Shown here piece by piece: positions 45,927-47,835 of a DNA stretch of 64,000 nt (its first letter is position 1; every line of letters starts with the position of its first letter). The stretch is from Chloroflexota bacterium. GTDB taxonomy: Bacteria; Chloroflexota; UBA11872; VXOZ01. The notes below the pieces were generated by a model. That model had not been told where the DNA came from and did not search any database. It worked only from the letters and a program-made list of their open reading frames with translations. A program made the position numbers and the translations under genes. The DNA is taken from assembly GCA_958295775.1 (NCBI GenBank), contig CATQHC010000003.1:1-64000 (forward strand), given 5' to 3'.

Positions 45927-46805
45927 CTACAGGCCTACCGCAAGCAGTTGCACGATTGTCGGCTTCCGCAAACGCCGCGCATACTGCAACGCCGTTTCAC
46001 CCTCGCGGGACTCTATCGCAAGATCTGGCGCACTTGCCAGCACCACTGCAACCAGCTTACGGTTCTTCGCCACCGCATGGTGGAGCGGAGTCTTTCCCGA
46101 CCGGTCCTGACGGTTTGGATCGGCGCCATCTTCCAGGAGCAATTCTGCCAAGGCAGCGTCGCCTTTGATAATGGCGCGGTGAAGTACGGTGCCGCCGTGA
46201 TGTCCGGCACCCGCATTTGCATCCGCGCCGTGCGCCAGCAGCAGCTTGGCAATAGGGACACGCGCTGCCGTCGCGGGGTATTCGGGGCACAGCGCCAACG
46301 CCGTGTGGCTGTTGTGGTTCTTTGCGTCCACCGGCACGTCTTGCCCAAGCAGAAATTTTACGCTTTCGCGATTACTTCCGATCACGGCGGCGTGCAACGG
46401 CGTAATGCGCCAGCGGCCACCCGCTGCCGTAGGTTCCCTCAAGGCCGGATCTGCCGCCAGCATCTGCCCCAAGAGGCGGATGTCACCGATTGCCGCGGCA
46501 TGATGCACAGTTGGCGGCATACCGAACGAGACGAGATAGCGGAAGATGTCCGCGTGCCCGCTATACGCCGCCGCATCCAGCAAGGTGCGACCGTGGTAGG
46601 CATAGCGTGGATCGGCGCCCTGGGCAATTAGGAACCTGACACGATCGAGGCAGCCGGTGCCAATTGCGGCGCCGAGCGGGACGTGACCGTGCGAGTTCGC
46701 CGCATTGACGATGGTGGGGTCTGCGCCCACTATCTCGGCTACTCGACTTAACTCCCCCGCCTCAATTGCCTCGATAAGCTGCTTGCGCAACGCCCGTCGA
46801 CCCAT
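45927..46805 (-). CDS. Ankyrin-repeat protein
   Basis: The protein is 292 residues from the ATG at 46805; a GTG at 46850 would add 15. At least six ankyrin repeats can be read, e.g. HGHVPLGAAIGTGCLDRVRFLIAQGADP, WRITPLHAAVIGSNRESVKFLL, GGTVLHRAIIKGDAALAELLLEDGADPN, GKTPLHHAVAKNRKLVAVVL. No signal peptide or enzyme domain. Such proteins bind other proteins; partners unknown. Confidence 0.85.
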   Translation of the reverse strand: MGRRALRKQLIEAIEAGELSRVAEIVGADPTIVNAANSHGHVPLGAAIGTGCLDRVRFLIAQGADPRYAYHGRTLLDAAAYSGHADIFRYLVSFGMPPTVHHAAAIGDIRLLGQMLAADPALREPTAAGGRWRITPLHAAVIGSNRESVKFLLGQDVPVDAKNHNSHTALALCPEYPATAARVPIAKLLLAHGADANAGAGHHGGTVLHRAIIKGDAALAELLLEDGADPNRQDRSGKTPLHHAVAKNRKLVAVVLASAPDLAIESREGETALQYARRLRKPTIVQLLAVGL

Positions 46806-46955
46806 TGTCTCTGCACACTTATTCCTTCTTGCGTTGACCTGATGCTCCACATTGTACCAATGGAGAGGCTGGTGGATTGCCGCTTTGGCTCAAAGTAGTC
46901 AGGAGTTTCTCGATCAAGGTTACACCTTCCAAACTGGGGTCCGCGTACAAATCAC

Positions 46956-46961: not shown

Positions 46962-47016
46962 GGTGACAAGCTACTAGCCAAATAGTGGTCGTCTTACCAG
47001 GAGGAGGATCGAAGGC

Positions 47017-47835
47017 ATGCGAAGGTTAGCGCACCGTATCGTACACGCCCGGATATTCGAATTCTTCCTGGTTTTTCTCATAATCGGAACTTCCATTCTG
47101 CAGGGGGTGTCAACGTCTGACGCTCTGTTTGAGCGTTATGAGGACTTGATAGTGTGGTTCGTTATACTCATGCTGCTCGTGCTCCTTATGGAAGTGTTTC
47201 TCAAGCTGCTCGCGGTCGCGCCCAGGATAGACCGTTACTTCAGGGACCCCTGGAATGTCTTTGATTTCCTTGTTATCACCACCGTGATCGTCGGCATTGC
47301 AGTCTATACTGCCGCCATCGACTTTGCGTTACTCGTCGTGGTCGTACGCCTACTGCGGCTCCTTCAGGGCTTTACCACCATCAAGGCGATGCGCATAATC
47401 CTCACGACGATGTTTCGCTCTATTCCGGATATGGCACACATCCTGATCTTGCTGTGCATCATTATCTATCTGTATGCCCTCTCCGGGCACAATTTCCTCA
47501 GGGAGCACGACCCCGAACACTGGGGTACGCTGGGTAAATCCATCCTATCGCTCTTTCAGGTGGTAACGCTGGACGGCTGGTCCGATATCATGCAAACTGC
47601 CCTCAAAGTAGAGCCGTTCGCGTGGGTCTATTTTGTTAGCTTTGTCATTGTCACCACGTTCATCGGGGCCAACCTGTTTATTGCCGTTGTGGTAAGCACC
47701 ATGGACGAAGCTAAGCAAGAACGCCTGCGCATGCTAGAAGCGCCCGCATCCAGAGATGAACTGCTTAGAGAATTGCGCTCGACCCAAGCATCGCTCCGCC
47801 ACGTGGAAGAAGCCCTGCAACGCACGCCCGAATAG
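47017..47835 (+). CDS. NaChBac-type voltage-gated cation channel, Ca-like filter
   Basis: The protein is 272 residues, the NaChBac length. Six membrane segments: S1 FEFFLVFLIIGTSILQG, S2 LIVWFVILMLLVLLMEVFLK, S3 NVFDFLVITTVIVGIAV, S4 with Arg in VVVVRLLRLLQGF, S5 and S6 around a pore. The filter is TLDGWSD (residues 184-190), where NavAb-type sodium channels have TLESWSM. S6 ends VVVSTMDEAKQE, followed by a likely coiled coil RDELLRELRSTQASLRHVEEAL that would hold the tetramer. AGGAGGAGG precedes the start. The C-terminal coiled coil and length match the family; the filter suggests calcium permeation. Confidence 0.88.
   Translation: MRRLAHRIVHARIFEFFLVFLIIGTSILQGVSTSDALFERYEDLIVWFVILMLLVLLMEVFLKLLAVAPRIDRYFRDPWNVFDFLVITTVIVGIAVYTAAIDFALLVVVVRLLRLLQGFTTIKAMRIILTTMFRSIPDMAHILILLCIIIYLYALSGHNFLREHDPEHWGTLGKSILSLFQVVTLDGWSDIMQTALKVEPFAWVYFVSFVIVTTFIGANLFIAVVVSTMDEAKQERLRMLEAPASRDELLRELRSTQASLRHVEEALQRTPE

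Follow-up and report, generated by a model that had tools for sequence, protein, structure and literature searches.

CavMr of Meiothermus ruber is a native prokaryotic calcium channel with the selectivity filter TLEGWVD and a PCa/PNa of 218 (PMC7041947), and in 2026 it was still described as the only identified prokaryotic Cav (PMC12919392). The key determinant of its calcium selectivity is Gly4. The mutants G4D and G4S have PCa/PNa values of 7.7 and 11.9, V6T (TLEGWTD) has a value of 40, and Asp7 is dispensable, with D7M keeping 144 (PMC7041947). In NavPp, the exchange D4G (TLEGWTD) gives a PCa/PNa of 41 (PMC7041947). A published scheme predicts that a one-domain channel with Gly at position 4 is calcium-selective (PMC10120453). 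NavAb S178G (TLEGWSM) stays under 0.01, so the scaffold matters; replacement of Met181 in NavAb already admits Ca2+ (PMC12919392). Asp at position 3 of NsvBa (TLDSWGS) gives permeability for Ca2+ and K+, which is abolished by D186E (PMC4225499). In the voltage sensor of NavAb, an outer cluster is made up of E32 and N49, the S2 Glu is part of an inner cluster, and a Phe marks the hydrophobic constriction (PMC13095418). TPC1 gates by voltage with two S4 basic residues, and the exchange of one S4 Arg for Gln or Ile abolishes its voltage gating; TPC2 is the natural case (PMC13095418).

The window, meaning the whole stretch of 64,000 nucleotides that was analysed, belongs to contig 3 of a genome of 3.4 Mb. 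The channel interval listed in Table 1 coincides exactly with a frame of 272 codons that runs from ATG to TAG and encodes a 272-residue protein (paralogue A); a strong ribosome-binding site, AGGAGGAGG, lies about 9 bases 5' of the ATG. Channel residues 12-235 matched the Pfam family Ion_trans (1.1e-39); the far weaker match to PKD_channel (5.4e-8) was taken as superfamily similarity. The frame is conserved in two congeneric genomes at 81% and 74% identity, and dN/dS (NG86) is 0.12-0.24. The channel gene is therefore real, and chance is excluded. Because the dN/dS values indicate purifying selection, they also argue against decay, and together with the conservation they ruled out a pseudogene reading. 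The same genome encodes a second Nav/Cav-type channel, L001 (paralogue B, filter TFDGWTD, dN/dS about 0.07-0.17 by NG86), and two K+-channel-like proteins. Paralogue A was present in three of the six genomes of the genus, paralogue B in all six.

Table 1. Features of the channel locus, in positions of the window
Feature	Positions	Strand	Basis
One-domain six-helix cation channel, 272 aa (paralogue A)	47017..47835	+	Frame, Pfam match, orthologues, dN/dS
Ribosome-binding site AGGAGGAGG	46999..47007	+	Read from sequence
S1 residue 32: Ser; Glu in 73/94 other channels (NavAb E32, outer cluster)	47110..47112	+	Alignment
S2 residue 49: Val; D/H/Y/N in 94/94 others (NavAb N49, outer cluster)	47161..47163	+	Alignment
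S2 residue 56: Leu, replacing the charge-transfer-centre aromatic (Phe/Tyr in 94/94 others)	47182..47184	+	Alignment
S4, residues 106-126, LVVVVRLLRLLQGFTTIKAMR; R1 = Val108, R2 = Arg111, R3 = Arg114, R4 = Gln117	47332..47394	+	Alignment
Selectivity filter TLDGWSD, residues 184-190	47566..47586	+	Read from sequence
C-terminal helix, residues 246-269	47752..47823	+	AlphaFold2 model; as in tetramerising BacNav tails
Ankyrin-repeat gene, divergent to channel	45927..46850	-	Neighbour of channel in three genomes; candidate partner at most

The protein has the layout of one-domain Nav/Cav channels, with six helices in a single domain and a filter of the form T-x-(E/D)-x-W. In the PDB, animal T-type calcium channels were its best sequence matches, and other four-domain channels and bacterial channels came next; this ranking is not evidence of kinship, since four-domain chains score higher partly through several matching domains. 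An AlphaFold2 model (mean pLDDT 80, pTM 0.57) contained the expected helices, and its closest PDB structure was NavAb (Z 17.2, rmsd 3.8 over 220 residues). The C-terminal helix of the model may serve as a coiled coil, and we infer that the channel is a homotetramer.

In a tree of 61 rows the window protein grouped with Chloroflexota and Mariprofundus channels and was split from the NaChBac/NavAb-type channels (TLESWSM, TLESWAS and related filters) with a support of 99/91. A phylogeny against NaChBac had been proposed as a check by the sequence-only reading that preceded this analysis; its outcome places the protein outside the NaChBac/NavAb-filter group and on the tree side with CavMr/NavPp-like filters, where CavMr and NavPp are represented by proxies with matching filters. 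A pore-only tree minus the filter columns gave the same arrangement with lower support. The filter is likewise TLDGWSD and not the TLESW of canonical BacNavs. Membership in the ancestor-like BacNavs (AnclNavs), which include NavPp, is likely on this basis; their TLE(D/G)W(T/V)D-type filters are common among the nearest relatives of the window channel. The protein belongs to a clade of four members, termed clade A (support 100/99), three of them in the genus of the window and one, L006, in a Dehalococcoidia MAG. Within a sample of 400 Chloroflexota genomes, clade A was found only in the genus of the window, with L006 as the sole further member found.

The filter had been read correctly as TLDGWSD, and its comparison with TLESWSM of NavAb and TLDDWSD of engineered, calcium-selective CavAb also held, with D, G, D here and D, D, D in CavAb. 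The weight given to Gly4 did not hold. It had been counted, on the CavAb model, as a missing third aspartate, whereas in CavMr it is the residue on which calcium selectivity mainly depends (PMC7041947), so that Gly4 of the window filter probably favours calcium. Calcium permeability is thus still the likeliest reading of the pore, but the CavMr data contradict the reasoning from aspartates by which it was reached. Nor is it up to date to call a natural calcium-permeable channel unusual: a native bacterial calcium channel was published in 2020, although in 2026 it was still termed the sole prokaryotic Cav identified (PMC12919392), and the filter is not new in kind. CavAb shares with the window channel Asp3, Asp7 and the NavAb fold, but it is engineered, works by added Asp rather than by Gly4 and lies on a different branch. 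CavMr has in common with it the one-domain architecture, Gly4, Trp5 and Asp7 and, by proxy, the broad side of the tree, and differs in having Glu3 for Asp3 and Val6 for Ser6. With Gly at position 4 and a polar or acidic residue at position 7, the window filter is of the CavMr-like type. Because of its polar residue at position 6, it is nearer to the moderately selective, K+-permeable TLEGWTD cases than to CavMr itself; TLEGWTD, the filter of CavMr-V6T and NavPp-D4G, occurs naturally in the close relatives L007, L088 and L091.

To judge from NsvBa, Asp3 tends to loosen selectivity. The channel might then be non-selective or permeable to Na+, with Gly having no calcium effect on this scaffold, as the non-selective NsvBa and the Ca2+-impermeable NavAb S178G would suggest. 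We consider this unlikely, as the tree places the window channel away from the NavAb-type channels, it shares Asp at position 7 with CavMr, and NavAb itself already admits Ca2+ once Met181 is replaced. An appreciable Ca2+ permeability of the window channel is, by analogy with these measured filters, what we rather expect. An open-licence literature search for TLDGW returned nothing, and no D3-G4 homotetramer with measured selectivity was found. The genome (G000) was also searched for Na_Ca_ex (calcium/cation antiporter, PF01699) and Cation_ATPase_C (PF00689). Neither had a match, which leaves no evident dedicated route for the export of Ca2+ and counts against the calcium reading; both families were present in most control genomes.

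The voltage sensor was compared over 98 aligned channels, four clade A members and 94 others, which were picked by similarity to the window protein and are not a sample of all BacNavs; as the four clade A members are related, their losses represent a single event, except at R4, where two may be counted. Few arginines had been noted in S4, and the case is stronger than stated, with Arg only at core R2 and R3 in LVVVVRLLRLLQGFTTIKAMR. R1 is Arg in all 94 channels outside clade A and Val, Val, Leu and Ile within it, and R4, always Arg or Lys outside, reads Gln, Gln, Gln and Arg. The S2 aromatic (Phe/Tyr in 94/94) is Leu in all four clade A members. Position 49, which is D, H, Y or N in every other channel, is occupied by V, I, V and W, and position 32, Glu in 73 of the 94, by Ser or Ala. 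Among the 98 channels only clade A is without S4 R1, the S2 aromatic and the S2 outer polar residue. In the window protein the canonical series of R1 to R4 at every third S4 residue is broken by Val at R1 and Gln at R4, and Leu56 takes the place of the charge-transfer aromatic; the inner countercharges, S2 Glu (E59) and S3 Asp (D83), are in place. E59, D83, R111 and R114 are invariant across all 98 channels. An S3-S4 insertion was considered as a mark of the clade and rejected, as the spacing of 31 is common to 12 other channels and L006 has 24.

Judged by the NavAb roles of the lost positions (PMC13095418), the clade A losses take away the sensor's outer half together with the gate residue and are not random decay. 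The intact inner network of E59, D83, R111 and R114 points to a sensor that is partly dismantled rather than pseudogenised. The S4 core of paralogue A is 81-90% identical among orthologues, which exceeds the identity of the protein as a whole and shows that the altered S4 is maintained. The description as voltage-gated is left doubtful: the inner network speaks for it, and the absence of R1, the S2 aromatic and the outer countercharges throughout the clade against it. CavMr was shown to be voltage-dependent (PMC7041947), whereas clade A lacks these residues, and the AnclNavs differ in the same respect, the reduced sensor being absent in the 94 other channels sampled. This sensor is the rarer feature of the locus, and the doubt that it casts on voltage gating is more interesting than the calcium reading.

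The reading that we prefer, at about even confidence, is a homotetramer that lets divalent ions pass and is gated by voltage weakly or not at all. Such a homotetrameric one-domain cation channel of the Nav/Cav superfamily, on the CavMr/NavPp-like side, would carry an Asp ring at the high-field site, Gly next to it and an outer Asp ring, through which Ca2+ and probably also Na+ and K+ would pass with a moderately divalent, not strict selectivity. The inner half of the sensor (R2, R3, Glu59, Asp83) would be retained and R1, R4, the aromatic and the outer countercharges lost. Since each subunit has two core arginines at most and lacks the constriction aromatic, voltage dependence would be shallow or lost, and opening may rely mainly on some other stimulus. 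It is possible, at a clearly lower level of confidence, that the channel is instead an ordinary voltage-gated, calcium-permeable channel like CavMr, in which R2 and R3 are enough to move charge and the effect of the losses is limited to a shifted or flatter activation curve. TPC1 gates on as few S4 basic residues, and R111, R114, E59 and D83 are kept in clade A as in the rest of the 98 channels; what weighs against it is that clade A, alone in the sample, has lost R1 and R4 as well as the S2 aromatic and the outer cluster. That the gene is decaying and its sensor degrading we regard as very improbable. The L006 genome does hold a second, frameshifted clade A copy, and clade A matches were absent from the congeners G002, G004 and G005 (of which G005 is 69% complete and G004 has a contig that stops near the site), but a dN/dS of 0.12-0.24, orthologue S4 cores with 81-90% identity, a fully kept inner sensor network and open frames in all four clade A members are hard to reconcile with decay.

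Paralogue B is 44% identical to A and shares the Asp3-Gly4 filter, but unlike A it has a complete S4 (R1-R4) and the S2 Phe. Paralogue A could act as a regulatory subunit that co-assembles with B into a heterotetramer with fewer gating charges, and a full-S4 paralogue was indeed present in each of the four genomes that have clade A. Within the genus of the window this co-occurrence says little, since B occurs in all six genomes anyway; the A and B genes lie on different contigs, and both the pore and the C-terminal helix are complete in clade A, which leaves the co-assembly decidedly unlikely. As in the homotetramer that we prefer, TPC2 has one S4 Arg position hydrophobic and pore and sensor domain kept; TPC2 is a two-domain eukaryotic organelle channel, and homology is claimed at the superfamily level only. 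Tentatively, and with more doubt than conviction, the window channel may be a prokaryotic counterpart of TPC2, calcium-permeable and evolved out of voltage gating by shedding the outer sensor half with the pore retained, which responds to another stimulus or serves as a non-sensing subunit beside the full-sensor paralogue.

As a homotetramer with Asp3-Gly4, a combination that otherwise occurs in CatSper3/4 (TVDGWTD/TQDGWVD), the channel would allow a direct test of which residue, Gly4 or the acid at position 3, determines selectivity for calcium. Its Chloroflexota relatives offer a natural filter series (TLDGWSD, TLDGWSE, TFDGWTD, TLDGWTE, TLDDWIS, TLDDWAK, TLDNWTQ, TLEGWTD). Reduced-sensor A and full-sensor B, encoded in one genome, offer a natural comparison on the number of gating charges that a small channel requires. 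The case carries weight with a single native prokaryotic calcium channel identified as of 2026 (PMC12919392).

The divergent ankyrin-repeat gene was considered as a co-evolving partner and rejected, because G002 and G004 have it too and neither gave a clade A match. For G004 the absence is provisional, as its contig stops about 470 bases beyond the start of the ankyrin gene; those bases contain no channel match. In G002 (L126 8398-9033) the slot between the ankyrin gene and a DUF3604 gene holds another reading frame, macro-domain-like by eye. Genes 3' of the channel in G003 (L109 8592-12010) look by eye like phage tail proteins and are possibly part of a prophage. The second clade A copy of L006 (254-793; G400:C1:325136-325534) lies about 5.2 kb from the intact gene and is decayed: it retains the S4 end and the pore with the filter TLDGWSN, is frameshifted close to the C-terminus and lacks S1-S3 upstream. 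The Chloroflexota one-domain channels L130, L131, L008 and L006 show an unusual variety of Asp3 filters (TLDDWAK, TLDGWTE, TLDNWTQ, TLDDWIS). A filter with Asp3, Ala4 and Asp7, TLDAWSD, was seen in the alphaproteobacterial channels L023, L024, L035, L038, L039, L065 and L083, and the two placed in the tree, L023 and L024, fall with the canonical BacNavs.
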